A model generated the notes under the pieces. The model had not been told where the DNA came from, searched no databases, and worked only from the letters and a program-made list of their open reading frames with translations. A DNA stretch of 40,304 bases from a virus, in the IMG/VR virus record IMGVR_UViG_3300013772_000030, positions 1-40,304 of that record, one strand, 5' to 3'. The position numbers and the translations under genes are program-made. Each line of letters begins with the position of its first letter. Position 1 is the stretch's first letter. Below are positions 9,460 to 34,099 of the stretch, one piece after another.

Positions 9460-9468
9460 ATTCTTCTT

Positions 9469-23979: not shown

Positions 23980-24008
23980 AGTATATCACTGCCCTAGCAG
24001 TGCATCTA
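23980..24008 (-). promoter_or_regulatory. Orphan promoter with spacer inverted repeat
   Basis: TAGATG (24003-24008), 17 bp, TATACT (23980-23985). CACTGC and GCAGTG pair inside the spacer. No gene follows. Confidence 0.45.
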
Positions 24009-24177: not shown

Positions 24178-24215
24178 GTTCATTCACTCCTAAGTTGTTC
24201 GGACTTGATACCTCA

Positions 24216-24257
24216 ACACTACAGCAGTGGGCGACTCATTGCAAGCCGCCCACTGCT
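24216..24257 (-). promoter_or_regulatory. Promoter with 11-bp inverted repeat
   Basis: TTGCAA (24239-24244), 17 bp, TAGTGT (24216-24221). Arms 24223-24233 and 24247-24257 are perfect complements; the -35 is in the loop. Confidence 0.7.
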
Positions 24258-24264
24258 TACAAAA

Positions 24265-24510
24265 TTACTCCTTAATCGGAGTCAGGCTCACGAACCTGTC
24301 GAAGTCCCGCACAACGTCGCTCAACTGCTCTTGGTACTTGTCAGACTCTCCGAAGAGCCTGCCACCGTCCAAGTACACGCGCTGGTGGACGTTGGAGCTA
24401 CCGTCTTCCTGCTTGAGCCACACAGAGTACGGCTCGAAGTCGAAACGCTCATCTGAGTTACGCACAGAGGCCGGAACGTTCAGAACCAGTGTGTACATTT
24501 TGCGAGCCAT
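24265..24510 (-). CDS. Hypothetical protein, 81 residues
   Basis: Begins MARKMYTLVLNVPASVRNSD and continues with FDFEPYSVWLKQEDGSSNVH and a helical QEQLSDVVRDFDRFVSL. Small alpha/beta fold, unrecognised. The leader holds GAGTTC-AACCG-GAACTC, then the AGGAGG inside a GTCC-TAGGA-GGAC hairpin 5 bases before the ATG. Confidence 0.62.
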   Translation of the reverse strand: MARKMYTLVLNVPASVRNSDERFDFEPYSVWLKQEDGSSNVHQRVYLDGGRLFGESDKYQEQLSDVVRDFDRFVSLTPIKE

Positions 24511-24556
24511 GGTGTCCTCCTAGGACTTGGGGAGTTCCGGTTGAACTCATATACAT

Positions 24557-24597
24557 AGACTACAGGCAAGAGGGCCAGCCGTCAAGCTGACCCTCTT
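24557..24597 (-). promoter_or_regulatory. Promoter with 12-bp inverted repeat
   Basis: TTGACG (24580-24585), 17 bp, TAGTCT (24557-24562). Arms 24568-24579 and 24586-24597 differ at one G-U-compatible position; the -35 is the loop. Confidence 0.72.
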
Positions 24598-24605
24598 ACA
24601 AAATT

Positions 24606-24860
24606 TTAGCGTCCGATAGTGCGAACCAACCACGTGTGCGAGTTGTGGACCGTGCTCATTTTCGTGTCCCATGCAGCCGCGCCACGTGCCTTCAGGACTA
24701 CTGTGGTGTGAGTCTCGGACGGTGTGCCCCACATGTCGCAGTGCTTGACTTCTACGACTTCGCCCTGCTGGTGGACCTCAATGCCCTTGCAGTTCGGAAG
24801 GTCCATCATGTGAGCCGCCCAGTCTCCGACTTTCAGTTCGTTGGTCTTTACCGTGTTCAT
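24606..24860 (-). CDS. Hypothetical protein, 84 residues
   Basis: From ATG 24860 (GGAAGGCAAGACA): MNTVKTNELKVGDWAAHMMD, HQQGEVVEVKHCDMWGTPSE, HTTVVLKARGAAAWDTK. The LKVGDWAAH plus GEVVEVK pattern is that of a small KOW/SH3-like barrel. Function unknown. A TCGG-AACAAG-CCGA hairpin lies in the leader. Confidence 0.62.
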   Translation of the reverse strand: MNTVKTNELKVGDWAAHMMDLPNCKGIEVHQQGEVVEVKHCDMWGTPSETHTTVVLKARGAAAWDTKMSTVHNSHTWLVRTIGR

Positions 24861-24896
24861 TGTCTTGCCTTCCGTTCGGCTTGTTCCGATATACAT

Positions 24897-24939
24897 ACTC
24901 TACAGCAGTAAGGGCCGGGACACAAGTCCCGACCCTTAC
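24897..24939 (-). promoter_or_regulatory. Promoter with 14-bp inverted repeat
   Basis: TTGTGT (24920-24925), 17 bp, TAGAGT (24897-24902). Arms 24908-24921 and 24926-24939, one wobble mismatch; the loop is at the -35. Confidence 0.72.
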
Positions 24940-24945
24940 AATTTT

Positions 24946-25266
24946 TTATGAGACCTTGACCCAATCAGTGGAGTCTACGCGCTGACCGTTCACGTGAGGC
25001 TCCCGGCCCTTGATGTTGAATGAACCATCAGTGAGCTTGTTCAAGCGGTTAGCAGTGGTGCTAGTGGACCAGCCTGCCCAGCTAGCGTACACGCCTTCGT
25101 CGCTGTAGGAGACGATTTTGTTGCCGTGGTACGTCGCGTGGATATCACCGTGTCCGCCAGCCTCCAAGCGCGTGTTGTGGCCGATTGTCATTGACTCGCG
25201 ACCGTCTAACGCCTTGAGGGCAGCTTCGTAGGACTTCGGGCTGTGCTTGAGGGTGAGGTTCGACAT
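24946..25266 (-). CDS. Hypothetical protein, 106 residues
   Basis: From ATG 25266: MSNLTLKHSPKSYEAALKAL, then HNTRLEAGGHGDIHATYHGN and VYASWAGWSTSTTANRLNKL. Gly/His/Ser-rich beta structure, unrecognised. The ribosome-binding site GGAGGACAAA sits in GTCC-TTGGA-GGAC, and GGAGC-AACCG-GCTCC lies upstream in the leader. ATG 25278 in frame is inside that hairpin and unlikely. Confidence 0.62.
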   Translation of the reverse strand: MSNLTLKHSPKSYEAALKALDGRESMTIGHNTRLEAGGHGDIHATYHGNKIVSYSDEGVYASWAGWSTSTTANRLNKLTDGSFNIKGREPHVNGQRVDSTDWVKVS

Positions 25267-25311
25267 TTTGTCCTCCAAGGACTTCGGGGAGCCGGTTGCT
25301 CCAATAACTAA

Positions 25312-25340
25312 AGACTATCATCATTCCAGCCCACGCGCAA
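25312..25340 (-). promoter_or_regulatory. Promoter
   Basis: TTGCGC (25335-25340), 17 bp, TAGTCT (25312-25317), preceded by a TTTGTAAAG box. No long inverted repeat here. Confidence 0.6.
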
Positions 25341-25349
25341 CACCAAACT

Positions 25350-25472
25350 TTACAAACTTTCGCCTTGACTTCCAGCGTTCAAGGGCTTAAGCTTGAGGTA
25401 TGAAGCAACCGATTGAAGCTGGGTCACCGGGAGACCCCAAAAATAGTTAGGACTCGTTTGGAAAGTAGGCAT
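25350..25472 (-). CDS. Candidate leaderless 40-residue ORF
   Basis: A TTGACA-18-AAGAAT promoter ends exactly 6 bases before ATG 25472. The product begins MPTFQTSPNYFWGLPVTQLQ and ends AGSQGESL. It lies antisense to the plus-strand leaderless peptide at 25400, so the two units transcribe through each other. It could be a regulatory antisense RNA and not a coding gene. Confidence 0.4.
   Translation of the reverse strand: MPTFQTSPNYFWGLPVTQLQSVASYLKLKPLNAGSQGESL
25365..25393 (+). promoter_or_regulatory. Plus-strand promoter of a leaderless peptide
   Basis: TTGACT (25365-25370), 17 bp, TAAGCT (25388-25393), then 6 bases to ATG 25400. CCTTGA and TTCAAGG flank the -35. Confidence 0.62.
25400..25450 (+). 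CDS. Leaderless micro-peptide, 16 residues
   Basis: MKQPIEAGSPGDPKNS then TAG. ATG is 6 bases after TAAGCT in the context GAGGTATGAAG, which is shared with the minus-strand peptides at 25977 and 30072 (AAGGTATGAAG, TAGGTATGAAG). The 3' end shares GACCCCAAAAATA with the 30 kb copy. It could instead be a small structured RNA. Confidence 0.42.
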   Translation: MKQPIEAGSPGDPKNS

Positions 25473-25478
25473 CACTCC

Positions 25479-25508
25479 ATTCTTTCACACTCCAAGCCCC
25501 ACTGTCAA
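25479..25508 (-). promoter_or_regulatory. Convergent minus-strand promoter
   Basis: TTGACA (25503-25508), 18 bp, AAGAAT (25479-25484), facing the plus-strand promoter at 25365. Confidence 0.55.
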
Positions 25509-25514
25509 GCCCAT

Positions 25515-25547
25515 TTCGGACAAAAAGAAAGGGCCTTTCGGCCCCTT
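25515..25547 (-). terminator. Rho-independent terminator
   Basis: AAGGGGCC-GAAA-GGCCCTT followed by TCTTTTTG on the minus strand, after the 25551 gene. Confidence 0.85.
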
Positions 25548-25550
25548 CCC

Positions 25551-25826
25551 TTACTTGTCTAGCGCGGTCTGGATGCTACGGGAGACCTCCCACGAGGGGT
25601 ACAGTGTCTTCATGTTCTTTACCGCGTTACGCATGCCAGCGGGCTTTGTAGTCCGTCCAGCGGGCAGCAGGCCCTGCGCCCTGCATGCGTCCAGTCCGGA
25701 GCCGCCACGGCTCAGCACCATGCCTGTCACGATCTCGATTGCCAGCCCGCGCAATGCTGCGTTGCGCTGGAAGAAAACGATACCTTCGCCAGTAAGGACG
25801 GTTCCGGCTGCTGTGTTCTCCGACAT
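25551..25826 (-). CDS. Hypothetical protein, 91 residues
   Basis: MSENTAAGTVLTGEGIVFFQ, then ALRGLAIEIVTGMVLSRGGS and a basic C-terminus with MRNAVKNMKTLYPSWEVSR. One Cys in LDACRAQGLL. Helical, basic; unrecognised. The ribosome-binding site lies in a 5-bp hairpin GAACT-TAGG-AGTTC, a compensatory variant of the GTCC/GGAC hairpin of other genes; the leader also holds CAAGC-AGAGA-GCTTG. Its terminator is one of the few classical ones in this block. Confidence 0.62.
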   Translation of the reverse strand: MSENTAAGTVLTGEGIVFFQRNAALRGLAIEIVTGMVLSRGGSGLDACRAQGLLPAGRTTKPAGMRNAVKNMKTLYPSWEVSRSIQTALDK

Positions 25827-25871
25827 GTGAACTCCTAAGTTCTTTTCTCAAGCTCTCTGCTTGATAAATCA

Positions 25872-25900
25872 ATCTTCTCACGTTCCAATAGACTATGCAA
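25872..25900 (-). promoter_or_regulatory. Extended -10 type promoter
   Basis: TTGCAT (25895-25900), 17 bp, GAAGAT (25872-25877) preceded by TGA. Confidence 0.5.
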
Positions 25901-25923
25901 GTGTTACGCCAAACTTTCTTTTG

Positions 25924-25977
25924 TTACGGCCCAATAGTTTTTCGGCTCCTCTGGTTTCCCTGCCTCCGGAGCTTCAT
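25924..25977 (-). CDS. Leaderless basic micro-peptide, 17 residues
   Basis: MKLRRQGNQRSRKTIGP then TAA. ATG is 6 bases after TAAGCT. Shares the GNQR(S/T)-x-K core and the nucleotide run GGCAGGGAAACCAGAGGA with the 30.07 kb copy. Very basic; RNA binding is plausible. Whether the peptide or the RNA is the product is open. Confidence 0.45.
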   Translation of the reverse strand: MKLRRQGNQRSRKTIGP

Positions 25978-25983
25978 ACCTTG

Positions 25984-26013
25984 AGCTTACGCGAAAGGGG
26001 CCAGCCCTGTCAA
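25984..26013 (-). promoter_or_regulatory. Promoter of the 17-residue peptide
   Basis: TTGACA (26008-26013), 18 bp, TAAGCT (25984-25989); GGGGC/GCCCC arms flank the -35. Confidence 0.65.
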
Positions 26014-26037
26014 GGCCAGCCCCTTACATTTTTTCGC

Positions 26038-26301
26038 TTAGTCGCAGCAGTCGCGGCTAGTGCACCAATGGTTGTGTGTGGAGCAGCTAGGGTCTGTCTC
26101 CTGCCCTTCGTGGCGCTCCGTGCGCTCTACGGACTCCATCATGATAGGCTCGTCACCGTCTCCCTTGCACTTGGGGCACTCGCCGCCAACCAGTGCCACG
26201 TACTCGCAGTTCGTGCACTCGAACAACTCTTCACAGTCGCACTCGTTGCCGTACGGCTCCATGTTTTCGTAGGCTCGCTGTGCTGAAGCAAATCCGCGCA
26301 T
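26038..26301 (-). CDS. Cys-rich zinc-binding-type protein, 87 residues
   Basis: Three Cys groups: CDCEELFECTNC (about residues 21-32), GGECPKCKG (39-47) and a C-terminal PSCSTHNHWCTSRDCCD (71-87). CxxC pairs at 29/32 and 42/45 make a rubredoxin-like zinc knuckle likely. Asp/Glu-rich elsewhere. Unknown role; possibly a protein- or RNA-binding adaptor. GACT-TTAGG-AGTC encloses its ribosome-binding site. Confidence 0.66.
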   Translation of the reverse strand: MRGFASAQRAYENMEPYGNECDCEELFECTNCEYVALVGGECPKCKGDGDEPIMMESVERTERHEGQETDPSCSTHNHWCTSRDCCD

Positions 26302-26343
26302 CTTGACTCCTAAAGTCTTTCAAGCTCCCTGCTTGATAAATCA

Positions 26344-26391
26344 ATCCTCTCACACAAAGATCCCCGCCACAAGTTCTGTGACGGGGACTTT
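26344..26391 (-). promoter_or_regulatory. Promoter with long inverted repeat
   Basis: TTGTGG (26367-26372), 17 bp, GAGGAT (26344-26349). AAAGATCCCCGCCAC pairs with GTGACGGGGACTTT across 26357-26391. Confidence 0.6.
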
Positions 26392-26398
26392 CGAAATG

Positions 26399-26605
26399 TT
26401 ACAGCGGGTAGTCGCCGTACTCATCTTCGTACGCGGTGAAGGGGCGATCAATTCGAGCCTCCACAAGCTCCTTAGCGAGCGAGGAAACTTCCTGCTTCCA
26501 TTCATACACTGCGTCTCCGTTGCCTGCGTCCTGCGCCTTGAAGAGTTCGTTACGTGCGTTGCTGAGTTCTGCTTCGAGTTCTGCGATACGCTCGGTCTTC
26601 GACAT
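26399..26605 (-). CDS. Small coiled-coil protein, 68 residues
   Basis: MSKTERIAELEAELSNARNE starts a coiled coil that runs to about residue 50 (QEVSSLAKELVEARIDRP), with an acidic tail YEDEYGDYPL. Unrecognised; probably dimeric. Shine-Dalgarno GTAGGAGTCAAA is present, but the hairpin around it is weak here. Confidence 0.62.
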   Translation of the reverse strand: MSKTERIAELEAELSNARNELFKAQDAGNGDAVYEWKQEVSSLAKELVEARIDRPFTAYEDEYGDYPL

Positions 26606-26642
26606 TTTGACTCCTACTGTTTCGGCTTGTTCCGATATAGAT

Positions 26643-26685
26643 AGACTACAGCAGTAAGGCCACCGTGTCTAGTCGGTGGCCTTAC
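26643..26685 (-). promoter_or_regulatory. Promoter with perfect 12-bp inverted repeat
   Basis: TAGACA (26666-26671), 17 bp, TAGTCT (26643-26648). GTAAGGCCACCG (26654-26665) and CGGTGGCCTTAC (26674-26685) enclose the -35. Confidence 0.72.
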
Positions 26686-26690
26686 AAAAT

Positions 26691-26942
26691 TTAGCGCTGG
26701 TGTTTGATCTCGCCGTTGATGATCAAGATCGTGTAGTGTGCTGTGATCGGCCCGAACCGTGCACCGTCCTTAGTGGGCAGGTACTCTACCGTTGCCCAGA
26801 ACAGGTTCATGTTCTGGTATCCTGCCTTGAACTCGAACCACTCGATGTCCCCGGCCTCAAGACGCTCTGTGTAGTGCGGTGTGACGTTCTCCTGTATGCG
26901 CTTGAGGTCGGCTTCCACGTTCTCCGGGTTGTACAGTTCCAT
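26691..26942 (-). CDS. Hypothetical protein, 83 residues
   Basis: MELYNPENVEADLKRIQENV then GDIEWFEFKAGYQNMNLFWA and ITAHYTILIINGEIKHQR. One helix and a beta meander; unrecognised. Leader: TATCGG-AACAAG-CCGATA hairpin followed by GACT-TTAGG-AGTC around the ribosome-binding site, so all three structural elements of this block are present. Confidence 0.62.
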   Translation of the reverse strand: MELYNPENVEADLKRIQENVTPHYTERLEAGDIEWFEFKAGYQNMNLFWATVEYLPTKDGARFGPITAHYTILIINGEIKHQR

Positions 26943-26981
26943 CTTGACTCCTAAAGTCTATCGGCTTGTTCCGATATAATG

Positions 26982-27010
26982 AGCTTAGCCTATATAAGCT
27001 GGCCGCGCAA
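26982..27010 (-). promoter_or_regulatory. Promoter
   Basis: TTGCGC (27005-27010), 17 bp, TAAGCT (26982-26987). AGCTTA and TAAGCT form a palindrome across the -10. Confidence 0.62.
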
Positions 27011-27014
27011 GTCC

Positions 27015-27242
27015 TTACAAAACTTTGTGGTTCAGGACCTGCACAAGTTTCCCGTCCGCGTTGTGAAACTGGTATTCTCCGTTGTCTTTCAGCGAGTCGA
27101 GCGCGTACGCCATGTGTGCGTCTGGTGAGCCTTCCATGGTCTTACAAACGTCCTCCCACGCGAGATTAGCCACGATGGACTTTTCTGCCGGAACGCCGAA
27201 CTGAGAATCTACTGCGAATGAGGTAACCTGAAACTTTGCCAT
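27015..27242 (-). CDS. Hypothetical protein, 75 residues
   Basis: MAKFQVTSFAVDSQFGVPAE, then KSIVANLAWEDVCKTMEGSP and a YQFHNADGKLVQVLNH hairpin. Ferredoxin-like alpha/beta pattern; unrecognised. GGAAGGTTAGTC precedes the ATG and a perfect TATCGG-GACAAG-CCGATA hairpin is in the leader, but the Shine-Dalgarno is not in a hairpin. Confidence 0.6.
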   Translation of the reverse strand: MAKFQVTSFAVDSQFGVPAEKSIVANLAWEDVCKTMEGSPDAHMAYALDSLKDNGEYQFHNADGKLVQVLNHKVL

Positions 27243-27286
27243 GACTAACCTTCCTATGCTTTGTATCGGCTTGTCCCGATATAACT

Positions 27287-27330
27287 ACTCTACACTAGAA
27301 CGGCTCCGGTGTCTATTCCGGAGCCGTTCT
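27287..27330 (-). promoter_or_regulatory. Promoter with perfect 13-bp inverted repeat
   Basis: TAGACA (27310-27315), 17 bp, TAGAGT (27287-27292). Arms 27297-27309 and 27318-27330 are perfect complements enclosing the -35. Confidence 0.73.
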
Positions 27331-27338
27331 TACAAAAC

Positions 27339-27578
27339 TTAGTGGCAGGTGAGCGACTTACCGACGTTCATGCAGCCGTGGCTTGCCGTGCTGCCTGACA
27401 GTTCCGGCATAGGGATATGAATGCCAACCACCGTAAGCAGTCCGCCTATGAGGCAGTAGACGGCTCCCAGCATCCCAAGACCTACCGCGATACCAAGGAC
27501 CCAAGCAACGGCTAGGAACGCGTACCATGTCGCCATGTCGAAGAAACGAGCGGTCGGGGTTGCGAGATTGGATTTCAT
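27339..27578 (-). CDS. Small two-helix membrane protein, 79 residues
   Basis: From ATG 27578 (AGGAGCCACC): MKSNLATPTARFFDMATWYA, then one long or two short membrane helices (FLAVAWVLGIAVGLGMLGAV and YCLIGGLLTVVGIHI), and a periplasmic-side tail with HGCMNVGKSLTCH (two Cys). Envelope-directed; function unknown. The longer frame from 27617 overlaps the promoter. Confidence 0.62.
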   Translation of the reverse strand: MKSNLATPTARFFDMATWYAFLAVAWVLGIAVGLGMLGAVYCLIGGLLTVVGIHIPMPELSGSTASHGCMNVGKSLTCH

Positions 27579-27615
27579 GGTGGCTCCTATGTCATTCGGA
27601 TTGTTCCGATAAAAC

Positions 27616-27661
27616 AACTATAGCCTAGAACTTATCCGGAGACAAGTCCTAGGCTATAGTT
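27616..27661 (-). promoter_or_regulatory. Promoter with perfect 13-bp inverted repeat over -10
   Basis: TTGTCT (27640-27645), 17 bp, TATAGT (27617-27622). AACTATAGCCTAG (27616-27628) includes the -10 and is the complement of 27649-27661. Confidence 0.72.
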
Positions 27662-27669
27662 AAGTTTTG

Positions 27670-27966
27670 TTACGCTACTGCGTACTCTCGGATCAGGGCT
27701 GCGCTGCCCTTCACAATGCGCTGTACGCGAGCGTTAGGCAGGATACGCCTAGCGATAGCATCAAGCGTCGAGAGCGGCTGTACGGGGACGCCAGACGGTG
27801 CCAGCGTGGCGATTCGAACCATCCGCTTGCCGGTCTCAGTGTCGAGAATCTGCTTCACGGTCACGCGCTTTTCCGGCTTGCCCTTGAGTTCCAGCTTGAA
27901 CGGTGTTTCCGTCCACGTCTTCTCTTCGTGGATGGGAGCAAGTGCGGTGATTACTGATGCAGTCAT
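27670..27966 (-). CDS. Hypothetical protein, 98 residues
   Basis: MTASVITALAPIHEEKTWTE, then FKLELKGKPEKRVTVKQILD and RMVRIATLAPSGVPVQPLST; basic C-terminal helix (ARRILPNARVQRIVKGSAAL). Alpha/beta; unrecognised. GTCC-TAGGA-GGAC contains the ribosome-binding site. The promoter lies inside the 3' end of the neighbouring 28019 gene. Confidence 0.62.
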   Translation of the reverse strand: MTASVITALAPIHEEKTWTETPFKLELKGKPEKRVTVKQILDTETGKRMVRIATLAPSGVPVQPLSTLDAIARRILPNARVQRIVKGSAALIREYAVA

Positions 27967-28003
27967 TTTGTCCTCCTAGGACATTGTTTTGGTTGGTAAT
28001 GAA

Positions 28004-28032
28004 AGTCTAGCGTAGTTGCTAGATGAAAGCAA
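28004..28032 (-). promoter_or_regulatory. Promoter inside the upstream gene end
   Basis: TTGCTT (28027-28032), 17 bp, TAGACT (28004-28009); overlaps the last codons of the 28019 gene. Confidence 0.6.
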
Positions 28033-28222
28033 GCTCTCGGACGTAGGATTCTGCTTCAGCCGTTGCAGCGGCCTCGGACTTGAACCACTCCGTCCGACGT
28101 TCCAGCGAGTCATCCCACTGTGTAACGAGTACAGCGGACTTTCCGCCACGTGTTGCGACATACACGCCGCTGTTGCCGTTGATCTGGTTGAGCTTGTAGC
28201 CGTTATCGATCCAGAAAAGCAT
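28019..28222 (-). CDS. Hypothetical protein, 67 residues
   Basis: MLFWIDNGYKLNQINGNSGV, then YVATRGGKSAVLVTQWDDSL and FKSEAAATAEAESYVREL. Pattern of a beta hairpin sheet followed by a helix, as in small phage proteins with a C-terminal A-A-E-x-Y helix. AAGGGGACAAA precedes the ATG without the usual hairpin. Confidence 0.6.
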   Translation of the reverse strand: MLFWIDNGYKLNQINGNSGVYVATRGGKSAVLVTQWDDSLERRTEWFKSEAAATAEAESYVRELAFI

Positions 28223-28264
28223 TTTGTCCCCTTAGTTAGTTGGTTGTTTGAAGCTGATATGTAA

Positions 28265-28303
28265 AGCTTATGCTGCGGTGAGAGCTTTGTCAACTCCCAC
28301 CGC
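28265..28303 (-). promoter_or_regulatory. Promoter with 10-bp inverted repeat
   Basis: TTGACA (28288-28293), 17 bp, TAAGCT (28265-28270). Arms 28275-28284 and 28294-28303, one mismatch; the -35 is in the loop. Confidence 0.72.
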
Positions 28304-28313
28304 TTACAAAAGT

Positions 28314-28649
28314 TTAAGCGAATTCGTAGCGCGTGATCTCGTGGAATTTGGATTCCGACTTGTACGCTCCGAACGTGAGAGAGTTGTCGAGTTCGAACAG
28401 TTCAACAATGAACCATCCCCACTCCTGCCAAGTGGCCGCGTAGTTCTCTCCGTTCATGCAACGACGCTTGTGGATGCCGTCCGCGTACGTGGAGCCAAGC
28501 CGGATTTCGAAGCCGTTAGCGCGGCTCCTGCTGGCCTGCTGCTCCAGCATGTAGGTGTCGATGCCTCCGGTGATCCTGCCCTTGCGACGAGCCGTGGCGA
28601 GTGCTGCGCGGATATCTGAGACGGTCAGGGTGTCTGAGTGAAGCTTCAT
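28314..28649 (-). CDS. Conserved actinophage-type protein (SRSRANGFEIRL family)
   Basis: A 111-residue protein. VSDIRAALATARRKGRITGG, then QQASRSRANGFEIRLGS, a NYAATWQEWGWFIVELFELD segment and YKSESKFHEITRYEF match a conserved actinophage pattern (SRSR-AFEV-L ... AATWDEWG-FL ... DP ... FH--T). Function is unknown. Its ribosome-binding site is in GTTCT-TAGG-AGAAC, a covarying variant of the hairpin. Confidence 0.72.
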   Translation of the reverse strand: MKLHSDTLTVSDIRAALATARRKGRITGGIDTYMLEQQASRSRANGFEIRLGSTYADGIHKRRCMNGENYAATWQEWGWFIVELFELDNSLTFGAYKSESKFHEITRYEFA

Positions 28650-28688
28650 GATGTTCTCCTAAGAACTTGGTGGCTTGCTGATGAATCA

Positions 28689-28717
28689 ATCTTCTCACAT
28701 ACTCATAGACTATGCAA
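28689..28717 (-). promoter_or_regulatory. Extended -10 type promoter
   Basis: TTGCAT (28712-28717), 17 bp, GAAGAT (28689-28694) preceded by TGA. AACTTTTGTAGG box upstream. Confidence 0.5.
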
Positions 28718-28751
28718 GTGTTACGCCTACAAAAGTTTTATTACTTTGGGC

Positions 28752-28780
28752 TTGCGCATGCTGCCGTTATGCCCTAAGCT
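28752..28780 (+). promoter_or_regulatory. Plus-strand promoter of candidate ncRNA A
   Basis: TTGCGC (28752-28757), 17 bp, TAAGCT (28775-28780). The spacer shares GCTGCCGTT with the 29.9 kb copy. Confidence 0.62.
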
Positions 28781-28786
28781 TGTCTT

Positions 28787-28859
28787 AGACGCAAAGACGC
28801 GTAGATAGGTGCCCTACCGAGGGGTACCGATACGAAGGGCAAGTGTGGGACTATTTTTT
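28787..28859 (+). ncRNA. Candidate small RNA A
   Basis: Predicted start 6 bases after the -10. The 5' end AGACGCAAAGACGCGTA is identical to candidate B at 29948 and can fold as ACGC-AAAGAC-GCGT. A second stem, GGTGCCC with GGGGTACC, replaces CGGCCC/GGGGTCG of B, so the stem is kept while its bases change. The transcript ends at a T-run (28853-28859). No ORF. It faces the terminator of the minus-strand 28905 gene. Confidence 0.5.
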
Positions 28860-28865
28860 AGGCTG

Positions 28866-28896
28866 GCAAAAAAATAAACCAGCCCGTAGGCCGGTT
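28866..28896 (-). terminator. Rho-independent terminator
   Basis: AACCGGCC (28889-28896) with GGCTGGTT (28877-28884), then TATTTTTTT on the minus strand, after the 28905 gene. Confidence 0.85.
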
Positions 28897-28904
28897 TACA
28901 ATTT

Positions 28905-29201
28905 TTAACGCTTGAGCAGATTCACCGCAGCTTGTGCAAGGTCTTCGTAGCTTGCAAAGTTGTTCATGCCTCCCGTATAGTCGCGAGTGTCCTTGGCGGT
29001 CCTGTAGAGCGCGGTGGTGTTCGTGTAGTGGTTGTGGTCCGTGCACACATACACGTCCTTACCCGTTCGCGGATCTGTGATGAATCCGGAGCAACCGAAC
29101 TTGACTCCATTAACGCTGATATTCTTCAGCGACACAATCAGAACCGGATCAATCGCAAGGATCTGATTCTTCAGTTTGGTGGAAAGCAGGGGCTTGAACA
29201 T
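28905..29201 (-). CDS. Hypothetical protein, 98 residues
   Basis: MFKPLLSTKLKNQILAIDPV, VSLKNISVNGVKFGCSGFIT, KDVYVCTDHNHYTNTTALYR and a C-terminal helix NNFASYEDLAQAAVNLLKR. Alpha/beta with a C...C...DHNH group that might bind metal. Unrecognised but clearly protein-like. GTCC-TAGGA-GGAC contains the ribosome-binding site and a strong terminator follows. Confidence 0.64.
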   Translation of the reverse strand: MFKPLLSTKLKNQILAIDPVLIVSLKNISVNGVKFGCSGFITDPRTGKDVYVCTDHNHYTNTTALYRTAKDTRDYTGGMNNFASYEDLAQAAVNLLKR

Positions 29202-29236
29202 TTGTCCTCCTAGGACTGTTGGACTTGCTTACAAAT

Positions 29237-29283
29237 ACAACGATACCGGACTCACATACTCTATGCAAGTCCGGTACCATTGT
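29237..29283 (-). promoter_or_regulatory. Promoter with 15-bp inverted repeat
   Basis: TTGCAT (29263-29268), 17 bp, TATCGT (29240-29245). Arms 29237-29251 and 29269-29283, two wobble-type mismatches, covering both promoter elements. Confidence 0.68.
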
Positions 29284-29292
29284 GAAGTTTTG

Positions 29293-29802
29293 TTACGCCG
29301 CTACCAGCTTGCCAGCGCGGATAGGTTCAAGATCCAAGCTACCGTTGGCCGCTACGTCGTAGATTGCCAGTTCGCCGCGCTCCAGACCCCATGTAACGGC
29401 CTCGCTGTAGTCTGCCGTCCAGTTGCACGCATCGATGAAAATGAGGCCGCTATCGGCCCACGTGCCGATGTAGCGTTCACGCAACGGCGAACCATCGTGA
29501 CCGTTTTCGATCTGTTCACGTGTCAAGTGGTCCGCGTACATTTTGCCGAATGCCCGACGCATGATGGAAAGTGTGAAAGTGTCCTCCGGAACGATCACAG
29601 TTTCAAGCTGCGCTCCGTTCCAGCCGGTTGCCTTGCCGACGAAATATCCGTCCGTCTTAGCAGGAACCTTGAACGTTGTAAGGTCTACCGTTGTGCCACC
29701 GTTGGCAAGGGTAGCCATGTACATGGCGCGGGTTGCTACGTCGCCGTACGTGCGCAGTGCTGCCGGAACTGAAGAGTTTTCGCGAACCATCTGACGAGCC
29801 AT
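29293..29802 (-). CDS. Hypothetical protein, 169 residues
   Basis: The second-largest product of the small-gene block. MARQMVRENSSVPAALRTYG, then ATRAMYMATLANGGTTVDLT, TDGYFVGKATGWNGAQLETV, and a C-terminal half with SGLIFIDACNWTADYSEAVT and ERGELAIYDVAANGSLDLEP. Mixed alpha/beta, soluble; no recognised motif. Leader: GGAGC-AACCG-GCTCC and GTTCT-TAGG-AGAAC around the ribosome-binding site. Confidence 0.66.
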   Translation of the reverse strand: MARQMVRENSSVPAALRTYGDVATRAMYMATLANGGTTVDLTTFKVPAKTDGYFVGKATGWNGAQLETVIVPEDTFTLSIMRRAFGKMYADHLTREQIENGHDGSPLRERYIGTWADSGLIFIDACNWTADYSEAVTWGLERGELAIYDVAANGSLDLEPIRAGKLVAA

Positions 29803-29849
29803 GATGTTCTCCTAAGAACTTTTGGGAGCCGGTTGCTCCGATAAGTAAG

Positions 29850-29878
29850 ACTCTACCGGAGTTAGATAGACTATGCAA
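29850..29878 (-). promoter_or_regulatory. Promoter
   Basis: TTGCAT (29873-29878), 17 bp, TAGAGT (29850-29855); ACTC-CGGTA-GAGT across the -10. Confidence 0.65.
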
Positions 29879-29912
29879 GTGTTACGCCTACAAAAGTTAT
29901 GTGACTTTCCGC

Positions 29913-29941
29913 TTGTATTCGCTGCCGTTGTGTGCGAGAAT
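29913..29941 (+). promoter_or_regulatory. Plus-strand promoter of candidate ncRNA B
   Basis: TTGTAT (29913-29918), 17 bp, GAGAAT (29936-29941). Spacer shares GCTGCCGTT with copy A. Confidence 0.52.
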
Positions 29942-29947
29942 TGATTT

Positions 29948-30030
29948 AGACGCAAAGACGCGTATATATCGGCCCTGTAGCGGGGTCGGGGGGAAGGCAT
30001 GCTCCGAGCTAAGCTCTAGGTTATTTTTGG
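29948..30030 (+). ncRNA. Candidate small RNA B
   Basis: Starts AGACGCAAAGACGCGTA, as in A, 6 bases after the -10. The second stem is CGGCCC-TGTAGC-GGGGTCG. Near the end GAGC-TAA-GCTC precedes TAGGTTATTTTTGG. It converges with, and overlaps by some bases, the minus-strand peptide unit at 30072. Confidence 0.48.
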
Positions 30031-30072
30031 GGTCCTCTGGTTTCCCTGCCCGCCGTTCCGGCCCCGCTTCAT
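30016..30072 (-). CDS. Leaderless basic micro-peptide, 18 residues
   Basis: MKRGRNGGQGNQRTPKIT then TAG. ATG 30072 is 6 bases after TAAGCT. It shares GNQR-T/S-x-K and its surrounding DNA with the 25.9 kb copy, showing a duplicated unit. Highly basic. Confidence 0.45.
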   Translation of the reverse strand: MKRGRNGGQGNQRTPKIT

Positions 30073-30078
30073 ACCTAA

Positions 30079-30108
30079 AGCTTATAAAAAATAAAGCCGC
30101 CCTGTCAA
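30079..30108 (-). promoter_or_regulatory. Promoter of the 18-residue peptide
   Basis: TTGACA (30103-30108), 18 bp, TAAGCT (30079-30084); GCCGTCCTG and CAGGGCGGC flank the -35. Confidence 0.65.
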
Positions 30109-30129
30109 GCAGGACGGCCTTACAATTTT

Positions 30130-30381
30130 TTACTCTTTTGCGTCTTCGATGTACGCTTGCGCATCGGCCAGCGTCTCAAACAGGACGGCCCCAAACGATC
30201 CGATGCTAAGGATTCGGTCCTTGATGTACGTTGCGCGGTACAGGTCATCGCTGCCGGTGTCCACGATCAACATGGACCCGAAGCGCGTCTCCACGGGCTG
30301 TACAGCTATGCTCTGGCCGCTGTACAGGTATGCGGGTATGATTCGCATGTTCTCTGCTTTACCGCCGACTACTACGAACAT
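30130..30381 (-). CDS. Hypothetical protein, 83 residues
   Basis: MFVVVGGKAENMRIIPAYLY, then SGQSIAVQPVETRFGSMLIV and a C-terminal helix ETLADAQAYIEDAKE. Several strands then a helix ending in AxAYI, the same shape as the 28019 and 18884 products. Unrecognised. GGGAAC-AACC-GGTTCCC in the leader and GTCC-TAGGA-GGAC at the ribosome-binding site. Confidence 0.62.
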   Translation of the reverse strand: MFVVVGGKAENMRIIPAYLYSGQSIAVQPVETRFGSMLIVDTGSDDLYRATYIKDRILSIGSFGAVLFETLADAQAYIEDAKE

Positions 30382-30428
30382 GTGTCCTCCTAGGACTTAA
30401 GGGGAACCGGTTGTTCCCTCTAATAGAT

Positions 30429-30471
30429 ACTTTACCGTAGTAAGGGGCTGGACGCAAGTCCAACCCCTTAC
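30429..30471 (-). promoter_or_regulatory. Promoter with 14-bp inverted repeat
   Basis: TTGCGT (30452-30457), 17 bp, TAAAGT (30429-30434). Arms 30440-30453 and 30458-30471, one wobble; loop of four bases within the -35. Confidence 0.73.
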
Positions 30472-30478
30472 AAAAGTT

Positions 30479-30796
30479 TTAGCGTGGCATGAAGTTTACG
30501 GACATGGCGTCCGTTACTCGGTAGATGAACTCCGCCACCGATTCGACTTCTGCGAACTGGTCGGTCTGGTCCTTGCCAAGGTCCCCGAACTCGTAGACCG
30601 CGTACGTGACCTGCTCCGGACGGAACCAGTCACCGCTTACAGCGTCGTAAATGGTGATCACCTTGTCACCTACCGTGATGGTGTACTGTGTGGCGTCGTC
30701 GTCACCGTAGTATTCGGTCTCGTACCCAAGCTCTGCAAGCTGGTCCTCAATCTCTGAGATGGGCAGTTCAAGCGCGGTTGCGGTTGCTACAGTCAT
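30479..30796 (-). CDS. Hypothetical acidic protein, 105 residues
   Basis: MTVATATALELPISEIEDQL, LGYETEYYGDDDATQYTITV, DKVITIYDAVSGDWFRPEQV, and a helical acidic end (QFAEVESVAEFIYRVTDAMS). Strongly acidic beta-sheet protein; unrecognised. GTCC-TAGGA-GGAC hairpin around the ribosome-binding site. Confidence 0.64.
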   Translation of the reverse strand: MTVATATALELPISEIEDQLAELGYETEYYGDDDATQYTITVGDKVITIYDAVSGDWFRPEQVTYAVYEFGDLGKDQTDQFAEVESVAEFIYRVTDAMSVNFMPR

Positions 30797-30832
30797 TTTG
30801 TCCTCCTAGGACTTGGTGGGTTGGTACTTACT

Positions 30833-30869
30833 ACTCTAGTGTATGAGAGCCGCGCTGTCAACACGGCTC
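30833..30869 (-). promoter_or_regulatory. Promoter with 8-bp inverted repeat
   Basis: TTGACA (30856-30861), 17 bp, TAGAGT (30833-30838). GAGCCGCG (30847-30854) and CACGGCTC (30862-30869) enclose the -35. Confidence 0.74.
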
Positions 30870-30880
30870 CCTTACAAAAT

Positions 30881-31273
30881 TTAGTCTTCCTCGAACTCCG
30901 GAACACCGGCCCACTCCAGAAGTTGCACGTCTCCCGGTTCGATGTACTCGGTCAACGATTCCAGTTCCACAATCTCCCACGTGCTGATGCTCTCGGCGTT
31001 GATCTGTGACCGCAGGTATTCCAGCCGGTGCTTGTTCACGGCTTCGTTGATTGCTTTGTCCTGCTCTTGGTAGTTCACGTCCGTTCGCTCGACAGGGCAC
31101 TCCACGCGCACTTTGTCGCCGTAGCCTAGGTCGATCATGTAGCCGTCACCTTTGGGAAGCGAGAACCCTTCGCCCTCGTAGGTTGACATGAATGAGCCGG
31201 ACCAGAGCATGATGCGCTTGCGCTTGTGCGTCAGGTTGTATTCATGGTCTACAGTGATTCCGTAGTGAGTCAT
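30881..31273 (-). CDS. Hypothetical protein, 130 residues
   Basis: MTHYGITVDHEYNLTHKRKR, then MLWSGSFMSTYEGEGFSLPK, GDGYMIDLGYGDKVRVECPV, a helical middle (KAINEAVNKHRLEYLRSQIN) and an acidic end (EWAGVPEFEED). Alpha/beta, acidic tail; unrecognised. The ribosome-binding site is in GGCT-TAGGA-GGCC. Confidence 0.64.
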   Translation of the reverse strand: MTHYGITVDHEYNLTHKRKRIMLWSGSFMSTYEGEGFSLPKGDGYMIDLGYGDKVRVECPVERTDVNYQEQDKAINEAVNKHRLEYLRSQINAESISTWEIVELESLTEYIEPGDVQLLEWAGVPEFEED

Positions 31274-31311
31274 GGTGGCCTCCTAAGCCGTTGTGCTTGG
31301 TTGATACTCAT

Positions 31312-31354
31312 ACTCTACCGTAGTCCAGCCCCCGATGCAACTGGACTACGGTAG
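31312..31354 (-). promoter_or_regulatory. Promoter with perfect 14-bp inverted repeat
   Basis: TTGCAT (31335-31340), 17 bp, TAGAGT (31312-31317). CTACCGTAGTCCAG (31315-31328) and CTGGACTACGGTAG (31341-31354): the longest perfect pair in the block. Confidence 0.75.
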
Positions 31355-31367
31355 AAGTTTTTGTAAG

Positions 31368-31604
31368 CTAGTTCCAGTCTACCGCGAGGTAGTGGCGCAC
31401 TTCCCGAACGTTTGTCATGTTGTGATCGCCACGGTTCGAAAGCTTAGACATGAGCCGAACCGGAACAACGAACATACCCGATGCCAGCGAGTCCGCTTTC
31501 TGGTAGCTGATAGCGTCGTTGATGATCTCTACCGTGACCGTTCCAGCTTCCTTGTCCCGCGATACTTCGTAGGACGGTTCTTTCAGTTCACCGATGGTGC
31601 TCAT
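31368..31604 (-). CDS. Hypothetical protein, 78 residues
   Basis: MSTIGELKEPSYEVSRDKEA, TVTVEIINDAISYQKADSLA, FVVPVRLMSKLSNRGDHNMT. Beta strands followed by a short helix and basic loop; unrecognised. GCC-TAGGA-GGC encloses the ribosome-binding site. Confidence 0.62.
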   Translation of the reverse strand: MSTIGELKEPSYEVSRDKEAGTVTVEIINDAISYQKADSLASGMFVVPVRLMSKLSNRGDHNMTNVREVRHYLAVDWN

Positions 31605-31635
31605 TGCTGCCTCCTAGGCTTTGTTGGTAAGTACT

Positions 31636-31674
31636 ACTCTAGTGTATGGGAGCCGTGCTGTCAACACGGCCCCC
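31636..31674 (-). promoter_or_regulatory. Promoter with 10-bp inverted repeat
   Basis: TTGACA (31659-31664), 17 bp, TAGAGT (31636-31641). Arms 31648-31657 and 31665-31674. Almost a copy of the 30833 promoter. Confidence 0.73.
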
Positions 31675-31684
31675 GCTACAAAAG

Positions 31685-32032
31685 TTAGTCGATGGTGACT
31701 ACTGCGTTCCCGATATGCTCAATCACCTTGAGCGCATCTTGAAACGTGATGCTGTAGGCCTCAACCAGTTCATCCGCCATGCCCGGACGGGTACGGGAGC
31801 CGTTGGAGTGAATCCAACTGCGTGCGTGCCGCTTCAGGATGTCGTCCGCGAAGTCCGCGTCTTGGACGTTGTTCCAGAAGACGTTTTCCGCTACCTGCCA
31901 GCCGAAGTCGTCTTGGAATGCTACGGTGTCCGTATCCCCTAGGATCAAGATACGTCCGTCCGCTGCCTTGAACACGGTACCGCCTTCGATAAGCTGCCCC
32001 AGTGTGTCCGGTCGCAATTCTTCCTGCTTCAT
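31685..32032 (-). CDS. Hypothetical protein, 115 residues
   Basis: MKQEELRPDTLGQLIEGGTV, FKAADGRILILGDTDTVAFQ, then a helical DADFADDILKRHARSWIHSN and DALKVIEHIGNAVVTID. Alpha/beta; the N-terminal hairpin GGTVFKAADGRILILGD resembles small beta-barrel binding domains. Function unknown. GTCC-TAGGA-GGAC at the ribosome-binding site. Confidence 0.64.
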   Translation of the reverse strand: MKQEELRPDTLGQLIEGGTVFKAADGRILILGDTDTVAFQDDFGWQVAENVFWNNVQDADFADDILKRHARSWIHSNGSRTRPGMADELVEAYSITFQDALKVIEHIGNAVVTID

Positions 32033-32070
32033 GGTGTCCTCCTAGGACGGTTGGTGTGGCTGATAAAACA

Positions 32071-32114
32071 ACAATACCCTACCCAAGCTGCAACCGCAAC
32101 TCGGTAGGGTATTG
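32071..32114 (-). promoter_or_regulatory. Promoter with 12-bp inverted repeat
   Basis: TTGCGG (32094-32099), 17 bp, TATTGT (32071-32076). CAATACCCTACC (32072-32083) and GGTAGGGTATTG (32103-32114) are perfect complements. Confidence 0.7.
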
Positions 32115-32125
32115 AAGTTTTGTAA

Positions 32126-32839
32126 CTACTTGGCGGGAGTCTGAGTGGTCGTCGGCTGGGGTTCCGGTGTAACTACCGGAAGCATGTCAGAAGCGTGGCA
32201 GATGCCTACGTTGTGCATGTCTGCATCACCGGGCTGCATGTGCTTGCATGCCTCTGCAATCTCATCCTGCGTACGGTTGAACTCGTACATGAAAGCCGGG
32301 TTGATTACTGACGTTACGCCTCGGTAGGTAATGTCCAGACGGCGAGTAGGGTAGGTTCCTACGTACATCTGACGGAACAGACGGAAGTCTGTGTAACCGG
32401 ACAAGGCAAACGCTTCATTGAGTCCGCAGATACGGTTACCCATTGTTTGGCAGTCCCAGCACGGTTCATCTTCCAGACAGTCATGTGCGAGGACGGGAGC
32501 CGTAGCCGTAGCCGTTGGGGATGCAGTCGCCGTAGGCGTCGGGGTCACCGTGACGTTAGGAGACGGTGGCGGGGCCGGATAGGTGTCCGCTGGCGCTGTT
32601 GCTGTTGCTGTTGCCGTTGCCGTTGCCGTTGCCGTAGGGGCCGGTGTGGCGGTGTCCGTAGGTGTGGGAGCCGGTTCCGTGGTGACCGTTACGGTATCAA
32701 CCGTAAGCACCGCATCCGGAGCCGTGATTGTTGAGATAGCCGATACTGGTTCGGCTGGCAGTGTGTCTGCCGTAGCTGGTTGGAACGAGAACATGGCCGC
32801 GACCAGCATAGCCGATCCGATGGCGAATACCTTCTTCAT
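32126..32839 (-). CDS. Predicted secreted protein with Thr/Ala/Pro stalk and Cys-rich domain
   Basis: A 237-residue protein. Signal peptide MKKVFAIGSAMLVAAMFSFQ with an ATA-D cleavage-like site is followed by an about 85-residue Thr/Ala/Pro stalk (PTPTDTATPAPTATATATAT and more). A compact domain comes next with CLEDEPCWDCQ, NRICGLNEAFALSGY and two later Cys (EACKH, GICHAS), and the chain ends in a Thr/Pro tail. Six to seven Cys suggest disulfides. It is probably exported or surface-displayed during infection. A superinfection or wall-related role is guesswork. AAGGAGGAAACA precedes the ATG. Confidence 0.72.
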   Translation of the reverse strand: MKKVFAIGSAMLVAAMFSFQPATADTLPAEPVSAISTITAPDAVLTVDTVTVTTEPAPTPTDTATPAPTATATATATATATAPADTYPAPPPSPNVTVTPTPTATASPTATATAPVLAHDCLEDEPCWDCQTMGNRICGLNEAFALSGYTDFRLFRQMYVGTYPTRRLDITYRGVTSVINPAFMYEFNRTQDEIAEACKHMQPGDADMHNVGICHASDMLPVVTPEPQPTTTQTPAK

Positions 32840-32876
32840 TGTTTCCTCCTTGATGGGGTTGAATTTGATACTCTAA

Positions 32877-32912
32877 GAGTAACATACTTCTGGCGGGACC
32901 GTCAAGCCCCGC
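32877..32912 (-). promoter_or_regulatory. Promoter with inverted repeat over -35
   Basis: TTGACG (32900-32905), 17 bp, TTACTC (32877-32882, weak). GGCGGG (32892-32897) and CCCGCC (32907-32912) flank the -35. Confidence 0.5.
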
Positions 32913-32926
32913 CTAAAGTATTGTAA

Positions 32927-33142
32927 TTAGAACTTGGCTACCGCAACCGCAAGAGCTTCGGCTTCGAGCCGCCTACGGGTAACCTTCGCCGCTGTCAACT
33001 CGATGATCCGTGCGGTAAGCGGATCGGGATCTTTCTCGAACTCCGCGTTCTCGTACGCGAGTTTGCTCTCCAGTGAAGCGGTGTCGATCTGTGCGGTATC
33101 CCGCATCTGGGTCAATACGGTAAGTGCTGCTTTGTTGTCCAC
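32927..33142 (-). CDS. Small helical protein, 71 residues
   Basis: Start GTG 33142. DNKAALTVLTQMRDTAQIDT, ESKLAYENAEFEKDPDPLTA, RRRLEAEALAVAVAKF. Two amphipathic helices; probably a small helical bundle. Ribosome-binding site AGGAGG lies in AGCC-GTAGGA-GGCT, another covarying form. Confidence 0.6.
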   Translation of the reverse strand: MDNKAALTVLTQMRDTAQIDTASLESKLAYENAEFEKDPDPLTARIIELTAAKVTRRRLEAEALAVAVAKF

Positions 33143-33179
33143 GGTAGCCTCCTACGGCTGTTGTTTGGCTGGTAGTAAA

Positions 33180-33224
33180 AGCATACCGCACTTCTGTAGA
33201 CTATGCAAGTTTACAAAAGTGCGG
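33180..33224 (-). promoter_or_regulatory. Promoter with 8-bp inverted repeat
   Basis: TTGCAT (33203-33208), 17 bp, TATGCT (33180-33185). CCGCACTT (33186-33193) and AAGTGCGG (33217-33224). Confidence 0.65.
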
Positions 33225-33234
33225 GAAACTTCGG

Positions 33235-33558
33235 CTACTGCTCGGATAGCGGAAGGGTTGTTTTGGCTCGCCGTTCCTGCTGTATCCGGAAGGTGTAGAA
33301 GACATTGACCGCAGCCAACAGGAGACGGTACTGGTCCGTGCTGGTCATCTTGTAGGTGAACTCCGGAATGAACCGGTCGTAGCCGTGGACGTAGTTGCCG
33401 TCCGGACCCTGCACCATGACGGTAGCTGAGATTCCGTTGCTGATGCTCCCGGCGCTGTAGACCAACTTGTGGTCATCGGGCAGGATACCGGCTACTCGTG
33501 CTTCCATCTCAAGGGTAGCAACGATGGGACGGATTTCTTCTTTGGTGTAGCGGGCCAT
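33235..33558 (-). CDS. Hypothetical protein, 107 residues
   Basis: MARYTKEEIRPIVATLEMEA, HKLVYSAGSISNGISATVMV, GPDGNYVHGYDRFIPEFTYK, TSTDQYRLLLAAVNVFYTFR. Helix, beta sheet, helix; basic end. Unrecognised. AGGAGG is in GTCC-GTAGGA-GGAC, 4 bases before ACCATGG. Confidence 0.64.
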   Translation of the reverse strand: MARYTKEEIRPIVATLEMEARVAGILPDDHKLVYSAGSISNGISATVMVQGPDGNYVHGYDRFIPEFTYKMTSTDQYRLLLAAVNVFYTFRIQQERRAKTTLPLSEQ

Positions 33559-33595
33559 GGTGTCCTCCTACGGACTAGGTTTGGTTGGTAGTAAA

Positions 33596-33634
33596 AGCAT
33601 ATCCTGCTCCCATAGTGTATGTCAATACGGGAGC
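33596..33634 (-). promoter_or_regulatory. Promoter with 9-bp inverted repeat
   Basis: TTGACA (33620-33625), 18 bp, TATGCT (33596-33601). GCTCCCATA (33606-33614) with TACGGGAGC (33626-33634). Confidence 0.7.
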
Positions 33635-33648
33635 GGAATAAACTTCGG

Positions 33649-33897
33649 CTACTTCAGGAGACGGTCATCGAAGTCATCCAGCCACGTCACCGCGAGCTTC
33701 CGCAGCTTGGATGTGGTCAGGAACTGACCGGGGAATTGCTGAAGGTCCGCGCTGCTGATGGTGTCTACCTCTTCGCCCTCGGCGTTCTCCACGTACACAC
33801 GACCGCCGCGCTGTTGGAAGGTGTACCCGCTGTAGTGCCGGATGGTGGGCAGTTCGGTGAAATACATCTTTGCTGCTTTGGGCTGGCTGCTTGCCAT
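33649..33897 (-). CDS. Hypothetical protein, 82 residues
   Basis: From ATG 33897: MASSQPKAAKMYFTELPTIR, then YSGYTFQQRGGRVYVENAEG and a helical KLRKLAVTWLDDFDDRLLK. Upstream in-frame codons cross the promoter and were rejected. A beta hairpin and C-terminal helix; unrecognised. AGGAGG in GTCC-TGAGGA-GGAC. Confidence 0.62.
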   Translation of the reverse strand: MASSQPKAAKMYFTELPTIRHYSGYTFQQRGGRVYVENAEGEEVDTISSADLQQFPGQFLTTSKLRKLAVTWLDDFDDRLLK

Positions 33898-33936
33898 GGT
33901 GTCCTCCTCAGGACTAGCGGTTGACTTGATACTCAT

Positions 33937-33965
33937 ACTCTACAGGAGTTTTGCTCCGGTGTCTA
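33937..33965 (-). promoter_or_regulatory. Promoter overlapping a stop codon
   Basis: TAGACA (33960-33965), 17 bp, TAGAGT (33937-33942). The TAG stop of the 33963 gene is the first half of the -35. Confidence 0.65.
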
Positions 33966-34097
33966 CTTGGCGGCGCTGATATCCATGTGAGCGATCTTGA
34001 CATGTGCCAGACCGTTGAGGAATGGGACTAGATCCGATTCACTGACGCTTACCTGCGTGAGTTCGCCGCTGGTCCACTTGATCTTGATGGTCCGCAT
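33963..34097 (-). CDS. Small hypothetical protein, 44 residues
   Basis: ATG 34097 lies 2 bases after the upstream stop with GAGGAAG as ribosome-binding site. MRTIKIKWTSGELTQVSVSE, then SDLVPFLNGLAHVKIAHMDI. Two strands, helix, strand: a minimal beta-beta-alpha-beta fold. Co-transcribed with the 34100 gene. Too short for the usual ORF cut-off, yet codons and start look real. Confidence 0.6.
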   Translation of the reverse strand: MRTIKIKWTSGELTQVSVSESDLVPFLNGLAHVKIAHMDISAAK

Positions 34098-34099
34098 GA

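Follow-up and report, generated by a model that had tools for sequence, protein, structure and literature searches.

Why should so many small genes of one virus carry a small RNA structure just where the ribosome binds? The question is raised by the IMG/VR virus record IMGVR_UViG_3300013772_000030, of which we analysed a 40.3 kb fragment (positions 1 to 40,304; hereafter the window). Between 24.2 and 34.4 kb of this window the minus strand has 25 genes, and 17 of them are preceded by a hairpin with the core of the Shine-Dalgarno (SD) sequence in or beside its loop. In these 17 the stems measure 4–6 bp and the loops 3–6 nt, and the 3′ arm usually ends 2–4 nt upstream of the start codon. AGGAG occupies the SD position of the window leaders, except at the gene starting at 25266 (TTGGAGG), and the register shifts, the SD lying half in the stem or wholly in the loop, depending on the leader. 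A previous sequence-only reading had described about 15 such genes, with paired stem changes around an AGGAG core that stays fixed. Every leader listed there is present at its gene start, and three further ones (33897, 33558 and 25266) enlarge the set to 17. The paired stem changes held up as well, with the leader at 31604 reading GCC(T)/(A)GGC and that at 31273 GGCTT/AGGCC with one G-U pair. The register, however, is not fixed, and loops range from 3 to 7 nt. The SD hairpins are the following:

33901..33914, minus strand, SD hairpin GTCCT-gagg-AGGAC, 3 nt before start 33897
33562..33575, minus strand, SD hairpin GTCC-gtagga-GGAC, before start 33558
33146..33159, minus strand, SD hairpin AGCC-gtagga-GGCT, before 33142 (GTG start)
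32036..32048, minus strand, SD hairpin GTCCT-agg-AGGAC, before start 32032
31609..31619, minus strand, SD hairpin GCCT-agg-AGGC, before start 31604
31277..31289, minus strand, SD hairpin GGCTT-agg-AGGCC with one G-U pair, before start 31273
30800..30812, minus strand, SD hairpin GTCCT-agg-AGGAC, before start 30796
30384..30396, minus strand, SD hairpin GTCCT-agg-AGGAC, before start 30381
29806..29819, minus strand, SD hairpin GTTCT-tagg-AGAAC, before start 29802
29204..29216, minus strand, SD hairpin GTCCT-agg-AGGAC, before start 29201
28653..28666, minus strand, SD hairpin GTTCT-tagg-AGAAC, before start 28649
27969..27983, minus strand, SD hairpin TGTCCT-agg-AGGACA, before start 27966
26946..26958, minus strand, SD hairpin GACT-ttagg-AGTC, before start 26942
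26305..26317, minus strand, SD hairpin GACT-ttagg-AGTC, before start 26301
25829..25842, minus strand, SD hairpin GAACT-tagg-AGTTC, before start 25826
25270..25282, minus strand, SD hairpin GTCC-ttgga-GGAC, before start 25266
24514..24526, minus strand, SD hairpin GTCCT-agg-AGGAC, before start 24510

The remaining eight genes (starts 34363, 32839, 28222, 27578, 27242, 26605, 24860 and 24177) have no hairpin or a weaker one.

Pairing of the flanks was compared with chance by a permutation test on AGGAG cores, in which only Watson-Crick pairs counted, at least 4 of them were required, and the 3′ flanks were re-dealt among the leaders in 2,000 trials. Within the window, 15 of the 21 AGGAG leaders had at least 4 pairs round the core, against a permuted mean of 4.6 and a maximum of 11. 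The test was extended to six genomes, namely the window, the Arthrobacter phages Racecar and Atuin, and three IMG/VR contigs, where 66 of 132 AGGAG leaders were paired versus 24.6 expected (maximum 39). After removal of duplicates and of the GTCC..GGAC type the ratio was still 28 of 93 versus 8.0 (maximum 17); neither observed count was ever reached in the 2,000 shuffles, although such P values serve as guides only, because related sequences are not independent. Elsewhere in the same genomes, hairpins occurred at 3–10% of AGGAG leaders, not above permutation; the flank-pairing signal is specific to this gene block. When all TAGGAG leaders were put into a single register, the covariation score was 0.214 versus 0.157 and the number of cells with double changes 29 versus 20 (each reached in 2 of 500 shuffles), while the pairs with double changes and the further pair types were not above shuffles. 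This weaker support, compared with the register-free test, is due in part to the mixing of three registers.

The stems themselves vary freely. The 67 hairpins counted comprise 20 distinct compensated stem sequences, such as GATTC/GAATC, GTTCC/GGAAC, GATCT/AGATC, AGCCT/AGGCT, TGACT/AGTCA and GTTCCT/AGGAAC, and by far the commonest is GTCCT/AGGAC (29 of 67). Compensation is also seen between orthologs: in one family the stem of the window gene is GTTCT/AGAAC and that of G008 GTTCCT/AGGAAC, with GTCCT/AGGAC shared by Atuin and G003, and a second family has GTCCT/AGGAC in the window versus GTTCC/GGAAC in Racecar. Other orthologs carry no hairpin, often with an unstructured A/C-rich leader instead. 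Searches against the 4227 models of Rfam gave no match at gathering score and one chance match to a microRNA (E 0.34).

Upstream of many SD hairpins stands a second hairpin, which begins directly after the predicted transcription start. Its loop, AACCG, is constant and its paired stem varies (GGGAAC/GTTCCC, GGAGC/GCTCC, GAGTTC/GAACTC, CAGCTC/GAGCTG, CGGTTC/GAACCG or GGCTC/GAGCC). AACCG occurs 199 times in the early regions; 15 of these occurrences are enclosed by a stem of 4 bp or more (about 0.8 expected with random flanks), and 13 of the 15 lie 18–22 nt upstream of AGGAG. AACCG-loop hairpins also exist in the loci L123, L134, L142 and L272, and some leaders use the loops AGGGA/AGAGA or ACAA instead. 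Examples from the window are:

30402..30418, minus strand, second hairpin GGGAAC-AACCG-GTTCCC, directly after the predicted transcription start
29825..29839, minus strand, second hairpin GGAGC-AACCG-GCTCC
25288..25302, minus strand, second hairpin GGAGC-AACCG-GCTCC
24532..24548, minus strand, second hairpin GAGTTC-AACCG-GAACTC
25848..25864, minus strand, second hairpin with another loop, TCAAGC-AGAGA-GCTTGA
26320..26336, minus strand, second hairpin with another loop, TCAAGC-AGGGA-GCTTGA

Seven two-hairpin leaders, taken from the window and from Racecar, served to build a covariance model. It matched 14 places at E < 0.001 in G001, G003 and G008, each on the coding strand of a leader-bearing locus; no match at E < 0.1 came from these genomes outside their leader regions, nor from any other phage searched. 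The claim of the sequence-only reading that the RNA structure, and not only the sequence, is selected is thus supported by the permutation tests, by the compensated stems of orthologs and by a covariance model that finds the leaders in three further phages: the RNA fold itself is kept by selection.

Still further upstream, inverted repeats of at least 8 bp (G-U allowed) precede 18 of the 24 genes tested, versus 4.9 in shuffles. On the minus strand of window positions 24000–34400 these repeats are 8–20 bp long with gene-specific arms, and many of them have the −35 hexamer (TTGACA-like) within the loop or next to it, for instance:

24566..24599, minus strand, promoter-embedded inverted repeat GTAAGAGGGTCAGCT-tgac-GGCTGGCCCTCTTGC, in which the −35 hexamer TTGACG spans the loop and the inner arm

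Most small genes of the block thus have a hairpin-promoter-leader cassette of their own. Many of the inverted repeats superimpose the next promoter on a terminator-like hairpin. In the same region and on the same strand, many stop codons are followed by TTTGTAG/TTTGTAAG, with 14 copies on the coding strand and 2 on the opposite strand; the remainder of the window has 2 on each strand. The gene at 32126–32839 (minus strand) encodes a Thr/Ala/Pro-rich protein of 237 amino acids with a hydrophobic N-terminal stretch and a repeated ACGGCA tract; its leader (start 32839) has a strong SD and no hairpin.

What kind of genes are served by these leaders? The portal protein of the window is 61–65% identical to the portals of the Arthrobacter phages Racecar, Mimi, Talia1610 and Atuin (192–194 kb), and a ParB-like gene (35.8–37.2 kb) matches only these four. 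From the ParB-like gene to the portal, the gene order of the window is the same as at the left ends of Racecar and Atuin. We take the window to belong to a large phage of the Arthrobacter type. In Racecar the first 20,468 bp (L123/L259) and in Atuin the first 17,312 bp (L124/L267) are exactly repeated at the right end, constituting direct terminal repeats, and the counterparts of the window hairpin leaders sit within them. Since the window is a fragment, the 24–34 kb block can be assigned to terminal-repeat material by homology only. Given their location in the long terminal repeats of relatives, the hairpin-leader genes probably enter the cell, and are expressed, before the others. Pfam assigned no function above cut-off to the 20 proteins scanned from the hairpin-gene region. 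The SPO1-type host-takeover modules likewise consist of many small genes of unknown role in a long terminal repeat, as does the hairpin-gene block of the relatives; to our knowledge, SD hairpins have not been described there.

What, then, could the hairpin do for the ribosome? The predicted energies, from about −1 to −6 kcal/mol, have medians of −4.1 kcal/mol at 37 °C and −5.2 kcal/mol at 28 °C, with no hairpin of the window group below −6 kcal/mol at 37 °C. The duplex between SD and anti-SD is predicted to be stronger (−7.4 to −12.9 kcal/mol at 28 °C); therefore, the hairpins should not act as locks and the ribosome should win. Most predicted folds leave AGG entirely unpaired and place the next two bases, AG, in the stem, an arrangement suggestive of a toehold. 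We thus lean, by a modest degree, towards a cis element that displays and at the same time insulates the SD and the ribosome-binding site (RBS). The AGG in the loop would stay single-stranded, with the rest of the SD in a weak stem, and would serve as the toehold for the anti-SD of the 16S rRNA, whose stronger pairing would then open the stem. Folded on itself, the RBS would be insulated against wrong pairing with other parts of the mRNA, and each promoter-leader-gene cassette might thus be translated well whatever its coding sequence. The A/C-rich unstructured leaders of the hairpin-less orthologs can be seen as another way of keeping the RBS open, in support of display. Several points weigh against this proposal. 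Holding part of the SD in the stem could just as well reduce translation; a leader without structure would seem the simpler solution, so that the hairpin may have a regulatory use; and the upstream hairpin, with its constant AACCG loop, might be read by a specific factor. Furthermore, the transcription starts of these leaders are predictions only.

According to the sequence-only reading, the structure would put translation of the whole gene set under one control, such as a helicase-like or RNA-binding factor, temperature or ribosome availability. Nothing we found supports this: stem and loop size vary, orthologs are often unstructured, and no homolog of CsrA, cold-shock domain (CSD) or S1 proteins was detected in the relatives. 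One form of such control would be a shared operator, where an RNA-binding protein of phage or host, a ribosomal protein or a small RNA reads the AGG/UAGG loop and switches the early genes jointly. A fixed loop core combined with free but paired stems would fit a reader of shape plus loop, the elements are confined to one gene block, and the loop of the second hairpin is constant. CsrA-type regulators recognise GGA in hairpin loops, and the CsrA/RsmA operators display it over the SD; the GGA in the loop is common to them and the window elements, but their consensus is different and the window loops vary in size. Loops of 3–7 nt with an SD moving between loop and stem are also too variable for a typical protein operator, and orthologs frequently lack the hairpin. 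The CsrA family PF02599 was absent from 9 phage records, whereas the controls E. coli, B. subtilis and T. maritima matched and C. glutamicum did not; CSD and S1 domains were not found in the relatives, with controls working. As loop size and SD register vary and unstructured leaders often substitute, a dedicated operator is disfavoured, and we regard it as unlikely. Temperature, another control put forward earlier, fares worse still. The hairpins do cover the SD, yet their short stems are perfect, with a predicted folded fraction of about 88–100% at 37 °C and predicted melting not before about 50–65 °C or above; they are therefore not RNA thermometers, a role with a negligible chance of being correct.

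The hairpins might also act on mRNA lifetime, either shielding the SD from an SD-cutting nuclease or offering GGAG for cutting and thus clearing early mRNAs. The precedent is RegB of phage T4, which cuts GGAG in early SDs; as in the window, where the genes are presumably early ones, a set of early phage mRNAs is marked at the SD. RNA structure protects from RegB, and RegB alone cuts well if the final G is constrained but GGA itself is free of pairing (PMC3014915), a situation resembling GTCC-TAGGA-GGAC. However, unlike the window hairpins, RegB sites shared no structural motif in systematic evolution of ligands by exponential enrichment (SELEX; PMC3014915), and the same or similar hairpins exist in unrelated phage groups. 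The RegB family PF10715 had no match in the relatives, a weak argument, since the same search matched no control genome either and is hence uninformative. Altogether, we consider such a role improbable. Even less credit is due to an explanation without structure, by which one strong SD was copied by recombination or the repeats are DNA-binding sites. The dominance of GTCCT/AGGAC would agree with copying, but the excess survives removal of the GTCC..GGAC type, orthologs carry different compensated stems, and apart from the SD no common DNA sequence is left.

Has anything similar been seen before? Of the elements described so far, the Start-Associated Sequence (SAS), GGGATAGGAGCCC (GGG-ATAGGAG-CCC), comes closest; Pope et al. 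found it in 2011 at 11–19 non-structural gene starts of cluster K mycobacteriophages (PMC3203893). There, AGGAG lies between complementary GGG/CCC arms 3–7 bp upstream of the start, beside larger intergenic gaps; the authors noted the conserved outer bases without a 16S rRNA partner and the outer symmetry, and proposed no hairpin (PMC3203893). About half of the SAS, termed extended SAS (ESAS), have an upstream promoter with an inverted repeat (PMC11373665), and in 2025 the SAS consensus with two mismatches again served as the main criterion, in a survey of 188 genomes (PMC12699233). In the window elements, as in the SAS, an SD core lies close to the start and a promoter with inverted repeat upstream; arms that can pair flank the core in both, strongly so in the window group and, among the cluster K sites that depart from GGG/CCC, only in part. 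They differ in that SAS arms are nearly fixed around the loop ATAGGAG, whereas the arms in the window vary freely with compensation around loops of 3–7 nt. The promoter overlapped by an inverted repeat, typical of ESAS, recurs in the window (18 of 24 genes), though with gene-specific arms, unlike ESAS. As the window elements (arms GTCC/GGAC, GTTCT/AGAAC, GACT/AGTC and others) do not match GGGATAGGAGCCC with at most 2 mismatches, we do not class them as SAS members.

Complementary arms, which we propose as the trait that really defines SAS, were then examined in cluster K itself by collecting all start-associated ATAGGAG sites from the right arms of eight phages, regardless of the arms flanking the core. 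The 65 distinct sites gave a covariation score of 0.172 versus 0.084 (0 of 500 shuffles), which dropped when the partners were slid. Among the 30 sites departing from GGG/CCC, 5 had at least 4 pairs versus 0.95 expected (P 0.0004), namely CGCAG/CTGCG, CGGCC/GGCCG, (A)TCGG/CCGA(C), (G)GTAC/GTAC(A) and (A)CTGG/CCAG(A). Because many of the remaining departures are unpaired, support for a hairpin in cluster K is moderate. The Microbacterium cluster EF phages have an SAS-like motif, GGGAAAGGACCCC (PMC7302621), which like the window elements places an SD core at gene starts, between GGG and CCC, with a conserved motif upstream; its arms are nearly invariant (in one genome), unlike the window stems.

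How widespread are such hairpins? The 252 kb contig G002 (L147:11242-14383, L148), which has a tail sheath like the one of Microcystis phage LMM01, carries the same SD hairpins, with stems such as GTCCT/AGGAC, ACCCT/AGGGT and TAGCCT/AGGCTA (10 of 50 leaders versus 3.7, P below 1/300). No SD hairpins were present in the portions of LMM01 examined, which suggests an independent origin. The Microbacterium relatives Pumpernickel, A3Wally and Cece and the phage DSL-LC01 showed no hairpin excess, and 80 portal-related contigs gave scattered single matches only. In a pattern search of IMG/VR with GTCCTAGGAGGAC followed by ATG, most loci matched the seed only, at about chance level; loci with several hairpins were L023, L077, L055, L059, L046, L068 and L072. 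In L046, L055, L059, L068 and L072 the several SD hairpins have differing stems.

We tentatively raise the possibility, to which we give somewhat less than even weight, that mini-hairpins with the SD in the loop and free, compensated stems are a general class of element for translation in phages, with origins in several unrelated lineages (the large Arthrobacter phages, the LMM01-related, cyanophage-like 252 kb contig, and the siphophages of cluster K and perhaps EF), and that this is what SAS are. Together with the AACCG hairpin, it might form a portable leader giving early genes translation priority or a common switch. The SAS have been without explanation since 2011, and a hairpin with compensated arms would account for their bases unpaired to 16S rRNA. 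It also predicts variants missed by a two-mismatch search, such as CGCAG-ATAGGAG-CTGCG and CGGCC-ATAGGAG-GGCCG (phage Aminay). A compact insulated ribosome-binding cassette would be of use for expression in actinobacteria.

Apart from the hairpin-gene block, the minus strand of the window at 6623–10353 contains nicotinamide phosphoribosyltransferase, ribose-phosphate pyrophosphokinase and metallophosphoesterase-like genes, likely a phage NAD salvage set.

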